Of a stretch of DNA of 33,981 bases, positions 4,644 through 24,174 are shown one piece after another. A program made the position numbers and the translations under genes. Source of the DNA: Bacillota bacterium (GTDB lineage: Bacteria; Bacillota_I; Bacilli_A; Erysipelotrichales; Erysipelotrichaceae); NCBI GenBank assembly GCA_023249475.1, contig JAHFCO010000026.1:1-33981 (forward strand). Direction: 5' to 3'. The notes below the pieces were generated by a model. The model searched no databases and had not been told where the DNA came from. It worked only from the letters and a program-made list of their open reading frames with translations. Every line of letters begins with the position of its first letter. Positions within the stretch are counted from its first letter, which is position 1.

Positions 4644-4743
4644 TATCGGTTATCCGCTGATGGATAAGTTGACACTTGTTCACTTCAACGGGAAGTGTTA
4701 TCCTAAAAGCAAGCGAAACAGGATGTTTTCACGAGGTCGAATC

Positions 4744-5526
4744 ATGAAAGAAGAGGTTCTAGGCATCATTCAGGAAACGTTGCAGGAAGCGGGGTTGGTC
4801 GTGAAACGCGCGGAGAACGCGGATTTGCAGGCCGATGCCGAGTTTTTGGATGCTTCCGTCTCTTCGATTAAGAAACCCGTCGTGTATCATGCCCTGATCA
4901 GTGCCGACATCCGCGATCAAGTGATCTATCTATACGAGACCTTGGACGGGGTGAACGGGGAGTTCGCCGCGAAGAAACTGAAGCGGATCGTCAGTAAACC
5001 CTTCGGGAAAACGGAAGTTGTCCGCTTGAACGTCGGGTCGATCGTGAAGTCGTTGCGGGGCGCCGTAGCGGATCCGTGGAAAGTCCGCCTTGTCAATTCG
5101 GTGCAGAAAGTCGAGTTCGCCAAGGGCGGGTTCGATTTCGCCCCGACGGATGAACCGATCGTCGCCCCGGACGCCGAGATTGAAAACATCGCCGAACCGG
5201 AGATCCCGTCCTTCAACGCTTGGAGCGAAACCGCGAAGGAAACAATCGTGGAAGAACGAGTCGTAGAACCGATCCGGACAAGTACGGAGAAGATGGAAAT
5301 CAATCTTTTCTATCTCGCATGGGTCGTCATCTTCGTCATCACGGGCATGGTGTTGAACACCTCGCCCTTGGGCTACGTCATCGGCTTCGCCGTTTGGACC
5401 GTCTTTCTCTACCTTCACCGGAAATATGCCGAAAACCTGGGCCTGCGCATCGGACTCTGGCTTGCCTGCGGCGGATTGATGCTGATCATCGCCTACCTCA
5501 CCCTCATGACACAGGAGACACCATGA
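4744..5526 (+). CDS. Uncharacterised protein: N-terminal soluble domain plus C-terminal membrane helices
   Basis: A 260-residue protein of unknown function. Residues 1-120 form a soluble alpha/beta-looking domain containing YHALISADIRDQVIYLYET. A Pro/Glu-rich linker (about 135-175) leads to three hydrophobic helices (about 185-255). The N-terminal domain resembles the whole of the next gene product (YNALIGIDEDNKTVYLFEK), so the pair arose by duplication with one copy gaining a membrane anchor. ATG 4744 (MKEEVLG) is preferred over an in-frame ATG at 4660, which lies upstream of promoter-like sequence. The stop overlaps the next start in ATGA. An inverted repeat, CACTTC-N5-GAAGTG, lies at 4681-4697. 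Confidence 0.75.
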   Translation: MKEEVLGIIQETLQEAGLVVKRAENADLQADAEFLDASVSSIKKPVVYHALISADIRDQVIYLYETLDGVNGEFAAKKLKRIVSKPFGKTEVVRLNVGSIVKSLRGAVADPWKVRLVNSVQKVEFAKGGFDFAPTDEPIVAPDAEIENIAEPEIPSFNAWSETAKETIVEERVVEPIRTSTEKMEINLFYLAWVVIFVITGMVLNTSPLGYVIGFAVWTVFLYLHRKYAENLGLRIGLWLACGGLMLIIAYLTLMTQETP

Positions 5527-17911: not shown

Positions 17912-18487
17912 ATGAACCTTTTCGATCTCATCGCCCGACCTTATGCCTTGTTTTATCGATATCAGATGCGCGGGTTCAATCAAAGCATCCCCGCGTTTCT
18001 AGCGTCTTTCCCTGAACCGATCGAATCCATCTTGGATGTGGGTTGCGGAACCGGTGCGATGTGCGAGGTATTCCAACAAAACGGATTGATCGTCGAAGGG
18101 TGCGACCAATCCGAAGCGATGTTGAAGCAGGCGAGACGGTTGACCTCGAAAGCGATACGTTATACGCGGGTCGATGCGACGAAAGGGTTGGATTATCCGG
18201 AGAAGTCGTTCGATGTGGTGATCGCATCGTTCGTCGCCCATGGTCTTCAAAAGAATGATCGAATGGCTCTTTATAAGCAAATGAAACGCGTCGCACGGAA
18301 AACCGTCGTCCTTCACGATTATGGTCAGAAACGACAGATTGTGTCGGACTTCTTGGAATGGTTGGAAAGAGGGGATTATTTCCGTTTCATTAAGGTCGTG
18401 GACGAAGAGTTGATTGAAACTTTCGGGAATCTTTCGAAAATCAATGAACACGGGAGTTCGGTTTGGTATAAAATGGAAGTCAAGTGA
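17912..18487 (+). CDS. Class I SAM-dependent methyltransferase
   Basis: A 191-residue methyltransferase. Motif I is ILDVGCGTGAMCEVF, followed by VEGCDQSEAML, a DAT/FDVVIASFV post-motif region and VLHDYGQKRQ. It resembles UbiE/Methyltransf_11-type small-molecule methylases; the substrate is unknown. ATG 17912 (MNLFDLIARP) has CAGGAGT upstream. An in-frame ATG at 17888 and one at 17798 are less well placed. The zinc-ribbon gene starts 8 bases after its stop, so the two are probably co-transcribed. Confidence 0.82.
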   Translation: MNLFDLIARPYALFYRYQMRGFNQSIPAFLASFPEPIESILDVGCGTGAMCEVFQQNGLIVEGCDQSEAMLKQARRLTSKAIRYTRVDATKGLDYPEKSFDVVIASFVAHGLQKNDRMALYKQMKRVARKTVVLHDYGQKRQIVSDFLEWLERGDYFRFIKVVDEELIETFGNLSKINEHGSSVWYKMEVK

Positions 18488-18495
18488 GGTAAACC

Positions 18496-18879
18496 ATGTT
18501 CTTTTTCTTCAGCTACGGTGCGAAACAAAAAAATCTCGGGATCGTGCAGGCGATCCTTTGCGATGTCTGCGGTCAATTCGGGAAGTACGAAGCGTACGCG
18601 ATTTTCAACGAGTTCGCGATGTTCTTCATCCCCTTGTATCGTTCGAAGAAAAAGTACGTCATCAAGATGACCTGTTGCCAAACGATCTATGAGTTGGACG
18701 AGGAAGTCGGTCGACGCATCGAACGCCAAGAGCGGGCTTCGATCAAGGAAGAAGATCTGAAGATGGTCAAACGGGGGAAAGGGGTGACCCTTTGCCCGAG
18801 CTGCCAAGCCGCGGTCGAAGATCACTTTCTCTTCTGCCCGAGCTGTGGGCAGCATCTCCACGACGATCACCGTAAATGA
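18496..18879 (+). CDS. Zinc-ribbon protein with two metal-binding segments
   Basis: A 127-residue cytosolic protein. The N-terminal part (FFFSYGAKQKNLG, then CDVCGQ, then FFIPLYRSKKKYVIK) matches the pattern of the zinc_ribbon_15-type family, although the expected second knuckle is CC rather than CxxC. A second ribbon at the C-terminus has CPSCQ and CPSCGQ knuckles before a His/Asp-rich end. GAGG at 18485-18488 precedes the ATG. It follows a methyltransferase and is closed by a terminator. Function unknown. Confidence 0.72.
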   Translation: MFFFFSYGAKQKNLGIVQAILCDVCGQFGKYEAYAIFNEFAMFFIPLYRSKKKYVIKMTCCQTIYELDEEVGRRIERQERASIKEEDLKMVKRGKGVTLCPSCQAAVEDHFLFCPSCGQHLHDDHRK

Positions 18880-18892
18880 CGGTGATTTTTTT
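18866..18892 (+). terminator. Terminator overlapping the zinc-ribbon gene stop
   Basis: ATCACCGT (18866-18873) pairs with ACGGTGAT (18879-18886) and is followed by seven Ts. Confidence 0.85.
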
Positions 18893-18911
18893 ATGCAACG
18901 GACTTGCATAA
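18891..18911 (+). promoter_or_regulatory. Palindromic operator 1 of the DUF134-NifX permease operon
   Basis: TTATGCAA-CGGAC-TTGCATAA is a perfect inverted repeat with 8-base arms. Its right arm includes the -35 box TTGCAT. It is a likely repressor site. Confidence 0.65.
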
Positions 18912-18931
18912 TCAGGAAAAGCGGATATACT
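18904..18931 (+). promoter_or_regulatory. Promoter of the DUF134-NifX permease operon
   Basis: TTGCAT (18904-18909) and TATACT (18926-18931) with a 16-base spacer, lying between two palindromes. Confidence 0.6.
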
Positions 18932-18933
18932 TA

Positions 18934-18953
18934 TTATGTGCATATGCCCATAA
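18934..18953 (+). promoter_or_regulatory. Palindromic operator 2 of the DUF134-NifX permease operon
   Basis: TTATG-T-GCATATGC-C-CATAA is symmetric at 18 of 20 positions. It has the same TTATG/CATAA ends as operator 1, with centres about 42 bases apart, and lies just before the ribosome site. Confidence 0.6.
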
Positions 18954-18963
18954 AGGAGAAACC

Positions 18964-19674
18964 ATGCCCAGACCGCAAAAAGGGAGAAGAGTCTGTCAGC
19001 GACCGATGTGTCGCCGATTCGAACCGATCGATTCCGCGACGTCGGTGTCCGTCATCTTGAATCTGGATGAACTGGAAACGATCCGCTTGTTGGATCTGGT
19101 CGGTTTATCCCAAGAAGCCACCGGACTACAGATGAACATCGGTCGTGCGACCGTGCAGCGGATCTATGAAGATGCGCGTCGCAAAATCGCCGATGCCTTG
19201 GTGAACGGAAAATCATTGCAGATCGAGGGAGGCAACGTCGATTTTTGCGACGGATGCGAGCCATCGGAAAACGGGGATTACGATATCCCACGAGGAGAAA
19301 CCATGAATAAAATCGCCATCCCTGTTTCAGGAAACGAAATCTTCGGCCATTTCGGCCATGCCCCGCAGTTTAAATTGGTGAGTGTCGAAGACAAGAGCGT
19401 TGTTTCGGTCGAAATCATCGACGCCCCGCCGCATCAACACGGATTCCTACCCGGCTTTTTAGCTGAAAAAGGAGTCGACACCATCATCGCGAATACCTTG
19501 GGTCAAGGCGCCATCGATCGCTTCAACGCCCTTTCAATCACGTTGTACAGCGGGTTAAGCGGCGATGCGGATGCCGCCGTGATGGCGGTTTTGTCCGGCG
19601 AGGCGCAACCCAATGCGAAAGCATGCGGGCATCATCATGGGGATGGTCATCATCACGGAGAACATCATGAATGA
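18964..19674 (+). CDS. DUF134 DNA-binding domain fused to NifX/NafY-like domain with His-rich tail
   Basis: A 236-residue fusion. Residues 1-100 match DUF134: MPRPQKGRRV, CQRPMCRRFEP, then an HTH-like LVGLSQEATGLQMNIGRATV, ending in CDGC. Residues 114-220 match the dinitrogenase iron-molybdenum cofactor (NifX/NifB-C/NafY) fold: KIAIPVSGNEIFGHFGHAPQFKLV and HGFLPGFLAEKGVDTIIA. The last 16 residues are mostly His and Gly with one Cys. Cys11, Cys16, Cys95, Cys98 and the His tail suggest metal binding. A strong internal ribosome site (GAGGAG at 19292-19297) precedes in-frame Met114. The gene overlaps the first half-permease by 8 bases. A metal-responsive regulator for the downstream permease is the best inference; it is not a nitrogenase gene. 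Confidence 0.85.
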   Translation: MPRPQKGRRVCQRPMCRRFEPIDSATSVSVILNLDELETIRLLDLVGLSQEATGLQMNIGRATVQRIYEDARRKIADALVNGKSLQIEGGNVDFCDGCEPSENGDYDIPRGETMNKIAIPVSGNEIFGHFGHAPQFKLVSVEDKSVVSVEIIDAPPHQHGFLPGFLAEKGVDTIIANTLGQGAIDRFNALSITLYSGLSGDADAAVMAVLSGEAQPNAKACGHHHGDGHHHGEHHE

Positions 19675-20143
19675 GGTTTTCTATGTCGCCGCTGGGCTTG
19701 GTTTAGTTTTCTCTTGGGTCAAAGACCAAAAGAAAACCAAGATGGCATTGAAGAAAGCCTGGAAGTCGTTTGAAAACATCTTGCCTCAGTTCTTGGCCGT
19801 TCTTTTGATCCTTGGCATCATGCTTGCGATTCTCACCCCCCAACAAATCTCATCCGTCATCGGAGGCGAATCCGGTTGGACGGGCGTCCTGGTCGCGTCG
19901 ATGTTGGGGTCGATCACCCTGATCCCCGGTTTCATCGCCTTTCCCCTGGCTTCCGCACTTTTAAAGAACGGGGCCGGATACATGCAAATCGCGGCGTTTG
20001 TCTCGACCTTGATGATGGTCGGGATCGTCACGATGCCGGTTGAAATCAAGTTCTTCGGGAAAAAAGCGACCTATCTCCGTAACGGACTCGCCTTTGTCTT
20101 TTCCTTGATCGTCGCTTTTGTGATCGGAGGGATCCTCGGATGA
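19667..20143 (+). CDS. Half-size permease, COG0701/DUF318-like, first half
   Basis: A 158-residue membrane protein with four hydrophobic helices. It matches one half of COG0701-type permeases (the superfamily including ArsP and YraQ), with the core SVIGGESGWTGVLVASMLGS, then IAFPLASALLKNGAG. The next gene encodes the matching second half. ATG 19667 with GGAG upstream overlaps the DUF134-NifX stop; longer in-frame starts lie within that gene. Its own stop overlaps the next start (ATGA). The substrate is unknown; a metal, metalloid or thiol compound is possible. Confidence 0.8.
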   Translation: MNEVFYVAAGLGLVFSWVKDQKKTKMALKKAWKSFENILPQFLAVLLILGIMLAILTPQQISSVIGGESGWTGVLVASMLGSITLIPGFIAFPLASALLKNGAGYMQIAAFVSTLMMVGIVTMPVEIKFFGKKATYLRNGLAFVFSLIVAFVIGGILG

Positions 20144-20676
20144 AAAGTACATTAAAAAAATATCGTATTTTTCTTCTCTTGGTCCTTGTCTATCTCGCTC
20201 TGTTCTTCCTCAAGCCCGACCTCTTCGCCAAATCCACCGAAATCACATGGAAGAGCCTTTTGGAGATGCTATCGGTTCTGCCTCCCATCTTCATCCTCCT
20301 TGGTTTACTGGATGTCTGGGTCAAGCGCGAGACCATGGTGAAATACATGGGTGAAGGTAGCGGTTGGATCGGAATCGTGCTGGCGTTCTTCCTTGGAAGC
20401 GCGGCCGCCGGTCCGCTGTATGCGGCGTTCCCGGTCGCCGTCATGTTATTGAAGAAAGGCGGATCCTTCACCAATGTCCTGATTCTGATCGGTGCCTGGT
20501 CGACGACCAAAATCCCGATGCTTCTCTTCGAAGCTTCCTCGATGGGCTTACCCTTCACCCTCTTGCGTCTGGGGCTGGATATCCTGGGCATCGCGATCAT
20601 TGCGATCGTCTCGAATAAAGTATTGAACGCCAAAGACAAAGCGGAAATCTACACATTGGTCGAAAAGAACGGATAA
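20140..20676 (+). CDS. Half-size permease, COG0701/DUF318-like, second half
   Basis: A 178-residue membrane protein with about five helices. The core YMGEGSGWIGIVLAFFLGSAAAGPLYAAFPVAVMLLKKGG parallels the first half gene (shared G-x-x-SGW-x-G, LGS, FP-(L/V)-A and LLK). Together the two gene products would make one full COG0701 permease with pseudo-twofold symmetry. The ATG overlaps the previous stop by 4 bases, so equal synthesis is likely. It is the last gene of the operon, meeting the AI-2E-type gene convergently. Confidence 0.8.
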   Translation: MKSTLKKYRIFLLLVLVYLALFFLKPDLFAKSTEITWKSLLEMLSVLPPIFILLGLLDVWVKRETMVKYMGEGSGWIGIVLAFFLGSAAAGPLYAAFPVAVMLLKKGGSFTNVLILIGAWSTTKIPMLLFEASSMGLPFTLLRLGLDILGIAIIAIVSNKVLNAKDKAEIYTLVEKNG

Positions 20677-20708
20677 AAAAAGAAGCCACCTCATTCGGGG
20701 TGGCTTTC
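20675..20708 (-). terminator. Terminator between convergent genes
   Basis: GAAGCCACC and GGTGGCTTTC form a 9-bp stem. The T run is on the minus strand, so it mainly serves the minus-strand permease gene, whose last codons lie in the stem. Confidence 0.8.
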
Positions 20709-21857
20709 GACGATTTGTTGGGAAGCTTTCTGTTCGAGGCGGTAATTCACCCAGTCCCGTAAGAGGGCGTAACAGAGGGAAGCGAAGGGGATGGAGATCA
20801 GAACCCCGAGGATGCCCATCAGGCTGGCACCGATCGTGATCGAGACCAAGATCCACATCGCGGGGAGGCCGGCGGCTTTTCCGACGACATAGGGATAGAT
20901 CAGGTTGCCTTCGATCTGCTGGATGATCTGGAAAAGGATGAAGAACCATAAGGCTTGCACAGGGTCGACGGTCAAGATCAAGAGGACGCCGATGGTTTGC
21001 GCGATCATGGCGCCGACGATCGGGACCAAGGCGGTGACCGCGACGATGACGCTGATCAGAAGGGTATAGGGGAAGCGGAAGATCGAGAGGGCGATGAAGA
21101 ACAACGTCCCGATGATGAAGGCTTCCAGGACTTGACCGAATACGAAATTGGTGAAGATTTCGTCCGCCATGTTGGTGATCGTGAAGATCCACATCGCGAT
21201 TTTCTTCGGGAAGACCGCCAGGCAGAGTTTCTTGACTTGATTCTGCAATGTTTCCTTATTCATCAAGACATAGACCGAGAAGATGAATGAAAGGATAAAG
21301 GTAAGGAAGGCGTTGAAGATCGATTGAACCAGTCCCCAGGAAGAATTCAACCAGGCTTGCCAACTGTTGGTGACCCAGGTGATGATGGTGGATTCCAACT
21401 TCGTCCAATCGAAGTTCGCCCGGACCAAGAGGTCGCCGATGGGGGTATCCGGTCCCAGGTTGGTTTGCGCCCACAATTGAAGGTTGTCGAAGGCGGCCGG
21501 GAGGGTGTTGATGAACGCGATGATCGTCGTGCTCAATTCGGGGATGATGGTCTGAAAGATGAAGACCATGACCATGACCACAAGCACCAGGGTGACAAGA
21601 TAACTCAAGATGCGATGATATTTTTTCGCAATGAAGCTGAGGGGGCTTTTCGGAAGGAACAGAAGTTTCTCGATGCGCATCATCGGCGCGTTGAGTAAAA
21701 ACGCGATCGCGAAACCGGTGATGAACGGGGTCAAAATCTCGATCGCCCGGTTCAATCCGCCGAATAACTGCTCGACGTGGTTGCCGATCCATAACATCGC
21801 GACGAAGAACACGATGAGAAACATGCCTTGTTTGATTTGGTTCGATTTATAATTCAT
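20691..21857 (-). CDS. AI-2E family transporter (PerM/YtvI-like membrane protein)
   Basis: A 388-residue polytopic membrane protein with seven or eight helices and a large central loop (about residues 95-210). Family signatures include TPFITGFAIAFLLNAPM near the N-terminus and the C-terminal ALVPIVGAMIAQTIGVLL, QQIEGNLIYPYVVGKAAGLP and GILGVLISIPFASL. Members include AI-2 exporters and Na+/H+ antiporters, so the family name does not fix the substrate. GGGGAAA precedes the ATG on the minus strand. A terminator overlaps its 3' end. Confidence 0.9.
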   Translation of the reverse strand: MNYKSNQIKQGMFLIVFFVAMLWIGNHVEQLFGGLNRAIEILTPFITGFAIAFLLNAPMMRIEKLLFLPKSPLSFIAKKYHRILSYLVTLVLVVMVMVFIFQTIIPELSTTIIAFINTLPAAFDNLQLWAQTNLGPDTPIGDLLVRANFDWTKLESTIITWVTNSWQAWLNSSWGLVQSIFNAFLTFILSFIFSVYVLMNKETLQNQVKKLCLAVFPKKIAMWIFTITNMADEIFTNFVFGQVLEAFIIGTLFFIALSIFRFPYTLLISVIVAVTALVPIVGAMIAQTIGVLLILTVDPVQALWFFILFQIIQQIEGNLIYPYVVGKAAGLPAMWILVSITIGASLMGILGVLISIPFASLCYALLRDWVNYRLEQKASQQIVESHPE

Positions 21858-22332: not shown

Positions 22333-22710
22333 ATGGAACAACTGTTCAAAGTCTTCAGCGATAAAAGCCGGTTACGACTTTTCTGGGTGTTGCTTCACGG
22401 TGAATACTGCGTCTGTGAACTGGAAGTCTTTTTACGGATGAATCAATCCACCGTATCTTTTCATCTTCAACGGTTGCGTAGCGAAGAAGTCTTGAAGGCG
22501 TCGAAATCGGCCCAATGGGTCCATTACACGGTGGATCCGAAATTCACGCAGGAAAACCAACGTTTGATCGAGTTCATGAGAGAAAAGTTGGCGGTGGACG
22601 GAGAGTGCATGGAAGATTTGAAACGGGTCGAACGCTATACATCGCAGGGAATGAACTGCAAGATCATCGCGGATGACCGCGATCGCGTCGTCGACGCGTT
22701 GGGAGGGTAA
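22333..22710 (+). CDS. arsR: ArsR/SmtB-family arsenical repressor
   Basis: A 125-residue winged-helix repressor. The metalloid-binding motif is C26-V-C28 in GEYCVCELEVFL, and the recognition helix is QSTVSFHLQRLR. Further Cys residues (near 95 and 108) may complete an As(III) site. It is the first gene of arsR-acr3-arsC, with the operator in the leader and AAGGAGGGG before ATG. The acr3 start is two bases after the stop. It is slightly longer than typical ArsR (about 100-120). Confidence 0.9.
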   Translation: MEQLFKVFSDKSRLRLFWVLLHGEYCVCELEVFLRMNQSTVSFHLQRLRSEEVLKASKSAQWVHYTVDPKFTQENQRLIEFMREKLAVDGECMEDLKRVERYTSQGMNCKIIADDRDRVVDALGG

Positions 22711-22711
22711 A

Positions 22712-23836
22712 ATGGAAAAACAAGGAATCGGTTTCTTTGAGCGAAACCTTACGCTCTGGGTGGCGGGATGCATGGTCGTCGGTGTCCTCATCGGTGTCTA
22801 TCTTCCCCAAGTCCCCGCGTTTCTCAGTCGCTTCGAAGTCGCGAGCGTGTCCATTCCGGTCGCGATCCTGATTTGGCTGATGATCTATCCCATGATGCTG
22901 AAAGTCGACTTCGAGAGCATCCGCCATGTCGGGGACAACCCGAAGGGCTTGTATGTCACCTGGGCCGTCAACTGGCTGATCAAACCGTTCACGATGTACC
23001 TCATCGCCTACTTCTTCTTGTACATCGTCTTCGGCACATGGATCACGCCCGACTTGGCGAAAGAATACCTCGCCGGCGCCGTGCTTCTCGGCGCGGCCCC
23101 GTGTACCGCGATGGTCTTTGTCTGGAGCCATCTCACCAAAGGCAACCCCGCCTACACGTTGATCCAGGTCGCCACCAACGATTTGATCATCCTGGTTTTG
23201 TTCGTCCCCATCGTCGCCTTCCTGCTAGGCATCTCCGATATCGCCATCCCTTGGGAGACCTTGTTTCTCTCGGTGGTCCTGTTCGTCGTGATCCCCCTGA
23301 CCTTCGGCTGGCTCTCGCGAAAAATCATCGTCAAAAACAAAGGTCTGGACTATTTCGAACATTCCTTCATCCCTAAATTCTCCAACGTCACCATCGCAGG
23401 GCTCTTGTTGACGCTGATCATCATCTTCTCGTTTCAAGGCCAGGTCATCCTGGACAATCCCTTGCATATCCTGTTGATCGCCATCCCCTTGACCCTGCAA
23501 ACCTTCCTGATTTTCTTCATCGCCTACTTCTGGTCGAAATTATGGAAATTGCCGCACGACGTCGCCGCCCCGGCCGGGATGATCGGCGCCTCGAACTTCT
23601 TCGAACTCGCCGTCGCGGTCGCCATTTCGTTGTTCGGACTTCAGTCCGGCGCGACCTTGGCCACGGTCGTCGGCGTGCTCACGGAAGTCCCCGTGATGTT
23701 GATGTTGGTGAAAATCGCAAACAATACCACCCACTGGTTTAGTCAAAAGGAGGAAACATGTCCCATTTACCAAGAGTCGCCTTCGTCTGCGTCCACAATT
23801 CGTGTCGCTCCCAGATCGCCGAAGCATTATCGGTGA
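22712..23836 (+). CDS. acr3: ACR3-family arsenite efflux permease
   Basis: A 374-residue membrane exporter of As(III) with about ten helices. ACR3 signatures are MIYPMMLKVDFE, LGAAPCTAMVFVWSHLTKGNPAYTL (conserved Cys), QVATNDLIILVLFVPI and GMIGASNFFELAVAVAISLFGL. ATG 22712 (MEKQGIGFFERNLTLWVAG) with GGGAGGG upstream is the start; an in-frame ATG 22673 lies inside arsR. The frame runs 79 bases into arsC, adding 26 residues of non-family sequence after HWFSQKEET. It is unclear whether this tail is functional. Confidence 0.92.
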   Translation: MEKQGIGFFERNLTLWVAGCMVVGVLIGVYLPQVPAFLSRFEVASVSIPVAILIWLMIYPMMLKVDFESIRHVGDNPKGLYVTWAVNWLIKPFTMYLIAYFFLYIVFGTWITPDLAKEYLAGAVLLGAAPCTAMVFVWSHLTKGNPAYTLIQVATNDLIILVLFVPIVAFLLGISDIAIPWETLFLSVVLFVVIPLTFGWLSRKIIVKNKGLDYFEHSFIPKFSNVTIAGLLLTLIIIFSFQGQVILDNPLHILLIAIPLTLQTFLIFFIAYFWSKLWKLPHDVAAPAGMIGASNFFELAVAVAISLFGLQSGATLATVVGVLTEVPVMLMLVKIANNTTHWFSQKEETCPIYQESPSSASTIRVAPRSPKHYR

Positions 23837-24174
23837 AGAATGCCTCGTTGATTTTCGAAGCCTATTCCGCCGGCACCGAAACCAAACCTCGAATCAACCA
23901 GGATGCGGTACGGATCATGAAGTCCCGCTATGCCATCGACATGGAACTGACGCAACGATCCAAACTGATCAGCGACCTTCCGCGCATCGACATCGTCATC
24001 ACGATGGGATGCAACGTCGATTGTCCCTACCTGCCCTGCAAGTTCAGGGAAGACTGGGGCCTGGACGATCCTTCCGGAAAGGACGATGACGAATTCAACC
24101 GTGTCATCGACATCATCGAGTTCAAGGTGAAGGAACTTGCGGAACGGATCCAAAACGGGGAAATCAAGGTTTAA
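23758..24174 (+). CDS. arsC: Arsenate reductase, LMW-phosphatase-like type
   Basis: A 138-residue arsenate reductase, converting As(V) to As(III) for export by ACR3. The P-loop CVHNSCRSQ gives nucleophile Cys11 and Cys16. A redox Cys cluster in TMGCNVDCPYLPC (Cys85, Cys89, Cys94) follows, then the DDPSGKDDDEF segment with the catalytic Asp. The pattern fits thioredoxin-coupled ArsC, but the Cys spacing differs from the Staphylococcus enzyme. The ATG has AAAGGAGG upstream and lies inside the last codons of acr3. Confidence 0.93.
   Translation: MSHLPRVAFVCVHNSCRSQIAEALSVKNASLIFEAYSAGTETKPRINQDAVRIMKSRYAIDMELTQRSKLISDLPRIDIVITMGCNVDCPYLPCKFREDWGLDDPSGKDDDEFNRVIDIIEFKVKELAERIQNGEIKV

Follow-up and report, generated by a model that had tools for sequence, protein, structure and literature searches.

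A DUF134–NifX fusion gene with a two-gene permease and a candidate operator in a member of the Erysipelotrichaceae

Results

A three-gene operon encodes a DUF134–NifX fusion protein and two half permeases

The window, by which we mean the whole 33,981-nucleotide stretch of DNA analyzed here, contains a three-gene operon on the plus strand that encodes a DUF134/NifX fusion protein and two half permeases, HP1 and HP2 (Table 1). The initial annotation had described coupled, overlapping genes, and we indeed found overlaps of 8 nt between fusion and HP1 and of 4 nt between HP1 and HP2. The start that it gave, 18891, falls upstream of the gene, as the fusion begins at the ATG at 18964 behind the ribosome-binding site AAAGGAGA. 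The operon begins 3′ of an intrinsic-terminator-like hairpin and is thus set apart from the upstream gene. A box resembling TATACT or TATAAT, comparable to the −10-like hexamer of the window, occurs at about the same position in the other six loci that carry fusion plus permease. No good −35 element is seen, and a promoter scan upstream of the fusion gene returned no full sigma-70 promoter. Single-strand folding of the same region yielded nothing (z +1.45), and hence a hairpin element upstream of the fusion is not suggested. Methyltransferase and zinc-ribbon genes lie directly upstream (17912-18879), in an order that is identical in the closest relative of the window, locus L085, and the terminator stands between them and the operon.

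Table 1. Features of the DUF134–NifX operon and its surroundings (positions in the window).
Feature	Position	Strand	Description
Intrinsic-terminator-like hairpin	18865..18887	+	stem of 9 base pairs, then a T run; ends the upstream gene
−10-like hexamer TATACT	18926..18931	+	read in the sequence; ends 3 nt before the palindrome
Candidate DUF134 operator TATGTGCATATGCCCATA	18935..18952		18-bp palindrome centred on CATATG, one mismatched pair
Fusion gene	18964..19674	+	236 aa; DUF134 residues 3-92, NifX/ORP-fold domain 115-213, Cys/His-rich tail from C221
HP1, first half permease (COG0701/PF03773 repeat)	19667..20143	+	158 aa, no Cys
HP2, second half permease	20140..20676	+	178 aa, no Cys
AI-2E-family gene	20691-21857	opposite	between the operon and the ars genes
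ars operon	22333..24174	+	ArsR 22333-22710, ACR3 22673-23836, ArsC-like 23758-24174; genes overlap

An ars operon is located 1.7 kb downstream of HP2, with profile matches to NCBIfam acr3 (E 6e-114), HTH_metalloreg and PRK13530. It lies past the opposite-strand AI-2E-family gene and a TfoX_N-domain gene, and is probably a separate transcription unit. This ars operon is an ordinary one; in L085, ArsR, ACR3 and ArsC-like genes follow the fusion and permease genes in the same order.

The fusion joins a predicted, sigma-region-4-like DNA-binding domain to a NifX-fold domain

Both domain calls of the initial annotation passed the respective Pfam cut-offs: DUF134 (PF02001) matched over its full length (E 5.9e-21; 75.3 bits versus 27) and Nitro_FeMo-Co (PF02579) matched with E 1.1e-16 (61.4 bits versus 26.3). 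The His-rich tail that it reported is present at the C terminus as ACGHHHGDGHHHGEHHE. The protein thus shares with the DUF134 family (PF02001, COG1342) a full-length match above cut-off, but adds to it a NifX domain and a Cys/His tail. In a fold search with a structural model of the fusion (pLDDT 86), the DUF134 part resembled sigma region 4 at a middling score (Z about 7 to several ECF sigma factors), and the NifX part matched TM1816 (1o13; Z 17.8), ORP (2wfb; 16.9), NafY (13.2) and NifX (11.6). A profile search found no HTH_5 or HTH_metalloreg domain in the fusion, leaving DUF134 as its sole predicted DNA-binding domain.

The best NCBIfam match of the NifX domain was the Di-Nase part of MrpORP (85 bits versus a cut-off of 450); only this part matches, and the P-loop ATPase domain of MrpORP is absent from the fusion. 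A [3Fe-4S] cluster has been reported in the Di-Nase domain of MrpORP, with the motifs CXHFGHCE and CDH proposed as its ligands (PMC6345978). The fusion carries HFGH and C-G-H-H, with the first Cys of CXHFGHCE absent. In an alignment of 27 fusions, five positions never vary, and the tail Cys that precedes the His residues (C221) is among them. The likeness to MrpORP and ORP of Desulfovibrio extends over the NifX/ORP-fold domain, the HFGH and the terminal C-x-H motif, as well as to the clustering of Mrp, NifX and DUF134 genes in relatives, whereas the fusion differs in lacking the Mrp ATPase domain and the Cys of the first motif and in being joined to a DNA-binding domain. From its fold and the invariant tail Cys, the NifX domain may plausibly sense a metal or cluster. 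Genes adjoining DUF134-NifX or the HP pair encode Mrp, rubrerythrin, desulfoferrodoxin, peroxiredoxin, rhodanese and thioredoxin, and this context, together with the NifX fold and the Cys/His tail, points to a metal-sulfur or redox-linked signal. Nitrogenase cofactor maturation is not supported as a role: in line with the initial annotation, the genome of the window (G000, 96% complete) contained no match to the nitrogenase-type subunit PF00148.

HP1 and HP2 are homologous half permeases without conserved cysteines

The initial annotation described HP1 and HP2 as complementary COG0701 halves. Both do match the ArsP_1 profile (PF03773), HP2 above the cut-off of 32.3 (score 46.5) and HP1 below it (27.4), but they match the same half of it. 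As the two are also homologous to each other by sequence match, they look like two repeats of one transporter fold. They stand in tandem in all 82 loci. The model of HP2 (pLDDT 91.5) describes a helical membrane half, in which D58, K106, K124, E131 and R143 are invariant across 61 homologues; a fold search with this model gave no convincing solved relative (best Z 6.1), a result that does not show a new fold. A positive loop follows the first helix in HP1 and sits at the N terminus in HP2, a charge pattern that suggests that the two may adopt opposite membrane orientations. We consider the case strong that HP1 and HP2 pair into one transporter, while the evidence for a transported substrate and direction is weak, the direction being a guess. 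The same genome encodes, separate from the split pair, a single-chain COG0701 permease (L002, G000:C8:81198-82058; E 4e-67).

Among the 82 HP1 and 82 HP2 sequences, there was no conserved Cys, and 77 of 82 had no Cys at all. ArsP homologues have a C(S/T)C motif in common (PMC4435449). Its absence from HP1 and HP2 makes the organo-arsenical mechanism proposed for ArsP unlikely here. The window permease shares the Pfam family of the ArsP/COG0701 (PF03773) permeases, but it is split into two genes, lacks C(S/T)C, has a regulator of a different kind and, in HP1, falls under the Pfam cut-off.

The permease clade of the window is distinct from the arsenic-linked one

More than 25 additional genomes encode the fusion, as shown by a protein search that covered 392 genomes from the phylum and 98 from the order. 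The fusion mostly has no permease beside it, which indicates that the permease is an optional partner; the complete set of fusion, HP1 and HP2 occurred in G142 and G234. A scan of 84,980 species genomes gave 296 HP1 relatives, from which 80, nearly all from anaerobic Bacillota, were retrieved by closeness to the window, so that fractions among these loci do not represent the whole HP family. In 69 loci, the sequence reached far enough to look for NifX or DUF134 genes within 1.7 kb upstream of the HP pair, and 15 of these loci carried one; given about two DUF134 genes and a few NifX genes per genome, we estimate that chance would produce far less than one such case. In a tree of HP1 plus HP2, the window formed one clade with L085, L086, L089, L090, L103 and L148 (support 99), with the fusion directly upstream in all seven. 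Unfused NifX or DUF134 genes adjoin the HP pair in about ten more loci. The genome-context survey proposed in the initial annotation thus returned a recurrent linkage, in six further fusion loci and about ten unfused ones.

The proximity of the ars operon raises the question of whether the fusion and half permeases export organo-arsenicals as a module that belongs with the ArsR-ACR3-ArsC genes downstream. The conservation of this arrangement in L085 would fit such a module, as would the 18 of 82 relatives of the HP pair that were classed with ArsR, ACR3 or ArsC. The tree, however, parts these from the lineage of the window: the half that holds the window has 18 NifX-linked rows, with ars genes nearby in the window and L085 only, whereas the other half has 18 ars-linked and two NifX-linked rows. 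In addition, the ars genes own an ArsR and are separated from the operon by an opposite-strand gene. The Cys test and this tree led us to drop direct arsenic export as the main explanation, and we regard it as distinctly unlikely. The frequent occurrence of the HP family in ars operons leaves room for a metalloid substrate, but as the clade of the window is the one outside them, "metal or metal-sulfur" is better supported than "metalloid". The overall interpretation of the initial annotation accordingly holds for the domains, the operon coupling and the linkage, and less so for its metalloid part.

Other surroundings of the HP pair were also seen. A search of plasmids gave few matches. On a Peptoclostridium plasmid (L219, NZ_CP007453.1), HP1-HP2 lies near the selenium/molybdenum cofactor genes yqeB, yqeC and mocA. 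ABC transporter and RND-type efflux-like genes flank the pair in four Sedimentibacter-like loci (L087, L091, L093, L138), and in six Acetobacterium loci (L095, L098, L129, L142, L155, L157) it lies 3′ of a methyltransferase gene that, among NCBIfam names, comes closest to trans-aconitate 2-methyltransferase.

A CATATG-centred palindrome precedes many DUF134 genes

The palindrome upstream of the fusion covers the likely transcription start and ends 11 bp before the ATG. Only 0.01 such sites are expected in the window, and a search of the whole genome with up to two mismatches returned a single site, at the fusion gene. The same core occurs at the same position before DUF134 genes in other genomes: CATATG was found upstream of 38 of 53 DUF134 genes, almost always inside a symmetrical 18-mer, compared to 4.4% of shuffled sequences. 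With at most one mismatch, the perfect form TATTGACATATGTCAATA occurred in 8 of the 98 genomes of the order, one copy per genome. Every one of these eight sites precedes a DUF134 gene that was identified independently by protein search, seven within about 70 bp and one (G164) at about 315 bp; a reversed-pattern control gave zero sites in the same 98 genomes. A looser pattern is not specific: it matched in 17 of 392 genomes searched, and some of the matches are not near a DUF134 gene, with three of these found ahead of ArsR/SmtB operons. Outside the class of the window, a comparable palindrome accompanied 12 of 30 DUF134 genes, and TTGAGCATATGCYCAA was present at DUF134 in each of the five Desulfosporosinus genomes. 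G221 has a site immediately upstream of a DUF5320-NifX-Mrp operon, with the DUF134 gene on another contig. Overall, these patterns make a strong case that DUF134 itself binds the palindrome as its candidate operator, and the DNA-binding role that the initial annotation assigned to DUF134 now appears well supported. Among titles and abstract openings of the literature, we found no description of DUF134 regulation or of a DUF134 operator.

Non-fused DUF134 genes that head Mrp clusters often lack the palindrome. In seven loci (L073, L074, L088, L107, L112, L207, L209), a GC-rich hairpin of variable sequence (e.g., TAACCGGAGGACGCTCTGGTTA) takes the place of CATATG, about 45-55 bp upstream of a non-fused DUF134 gene heading an Mrp/NifX cluster; it is possibly an RNA or attenuator element.

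Second DUF134-type sites were observed in three Desulfosporosinus genomes (L222, L227, L228; each at 1501-1516), where they precede a DsrE-family gene in two species as well as MOSC-NifX-Mrp genes, which are candidate regulon members. The DsrE sites could be taken to mean that the operon handles sulfur, with reactive sulfur (persulfide, sulfide or thiosulfate) rather than a metal being sensed and transported. The presence immediately upstream, in L047, L053 or L089, of genes for rhodanese, thioredoxin-like proteins and thioredoxin reductase fits this as well. The window, however, lacks those sulfur genes, the NifX fold and Cys/His tail indicate a metal, and the DUF134 sites stand before MOSC-NifX-Mrp genes too, so that we judge such a sulfur system to be unlikely.

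A further question is whether the palindrome belongs to another regulator, of Crp/Fnr or ArsR/SmtB type, with DUF134 not being its partner. The TTGACATATGTCAA form fits a Crp/Fnr-type box, TTGAC-N4-GTCAA, and in L149 a copy of it stands upstream of a Crp/Fnr-type gene. The TGAACATATGTTCA form resembles ArsR/SmtB operators and is found before ArsR/SmtB genes in G100, G144 and G146. Against this stand the single site per genome at the DUF134 gene, the invariant CATATG centre with arms that vary with the DUF134 recognition helix, and, in the L149 genome, a DUF134-NifX fusion that has a separate site (L235). Furthermore, the form in the window fits neither a Crp/Fnr nor an ArsR/SmtB box; by reading, it matches neither TTGA(T/C)-N4-(A/G)TCAA nor TGTGA-N6-TCACA. 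We therefore hold another regulator to be very improbable. The L149 copy (4730-4747) is a perfect TATTGACATATGTCAATA; genes for thioredoxin reductase and ferredoxin and the HP pair lie alongside. TGAACATATGTTCA-like sites in L174, L176 and L178 precede genes for ArsR/SmtB-type regulators and metal P-type ATPase-like proteins, and such sites before ArsR/SmtB genes suggest that the DUF134 and ArsR/SmtB families may use look-alike operators.

Bases of the candidate operator covary with residues of the DUF134 recognition helix

For 47 distinct DUF134 proteins that have a site, we compared the recognition helix with the operator. A helix whose conserved Arg is followed by Ala or Gly (R-[A/G]-T) went with GCATATGC, and one with another residue there with a ACATATGT-type core, in 45 of 47, and the Arg in TVQR/TFQR went with G at operator position 4 in 44 of 47 (20 of 23 with Arg; never G in the 24 of 24 without it), although these statistics overstate the evidence, as few of the comparisons are independent of ancestry. 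A paired tree test left one well-supported independent pair per trait. The direction of the covariation is as would be expected if DUF134 reads the palindrome DNA.

Discussion

The genes, domains and overlaps, their recurrence, and the conserved palindrome with its specificity can be read directly from the sequence. On this basis, we think it fairly probable that the fusion is a self-regulating one-component sensor of a metal or metal-sulfur species that works together with a two-gene transporter. In this proposal, the DUF134 part would bind the palindrome as a dimer through its sigma-region-4-like helix-turn-helix, and the bound fusion would repress its own operon, which we hold with moderate confidence. 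The NifX/Orange-protein-fold domain and the Cys/His-rich tail would bind a metal or metal-sulfur species (Fe-S, Mo-S or a soft metal), a metal-sulfur ligand again being held with moderate confidence, and gain or loss of this ligand would alter DNA binding and release the operon. The co-translated half permeases would then pair into one inverted-repeat transporter that may move the sensed or a related species, most likely outward. The fusion would thereby work like SoxR, ArsR and MerR-type one-component regulators, in which a DNA-binding part and a metal- or cluster-binding part control neighboring genes, but both its DNA-binding fold (the sigma-region-4-like DUF134) and its sensor fold are unrelated to theirs.

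The fusion might instead serve mainly to store or chaperone a metal or Fe-S while also regulating itself, with the permease pair a chance operon partner in one clade. The fusion usually stands alone, and its domain family includes proteins that store or carry Fe-S: IssA, which stores iron-sulfur (PMC5524996), and MrpORP (PMC6345978). Yet, unfused NifX genes repeatedly adjoin the HP pair as well, the genes of the operon overlap, and fusion plus pair form a single clade of seven members with high support. We see a store or chaperone as somewhat unlikely, and prefer the self-regulating sensor with its transporter.

New here are the candidate DUF134 operator, its tie to the recognition helix, and a permease clade that is separate from the arsenic-linked one. 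More broadly, and tentatively, DUF134 proteins may be widespread metal-sulfur-responsive autoregulators whose helix residues set the bases beside the invariant CATATG, and this family may control NifX, Mrp, MOSC, DsrE and a Cys-free two-gene permease in anaerobes as an unrecognised metal-sulfur homeostasis regulon; taken together, we regard this as possible, if short of probable. If the code is true, RATVQR and RTTVQR helices would differ in their preference between TATGTGCATATGCACATA and TATGAACATATGTTCATA. DUF134 is a large family without an assigned role, and an operator with a residue-to-base rule would make it a usable regulator family, whose regulon could then be read from genomes. NifX-fold domains outside nitrogenase are equally unexplained, and their tie to a promoter offers a reporter to find their ligand, while the COG0701 pair, split and devoid of Cys, defines a group of transporters apart from the arsenic-exporting ArsP.
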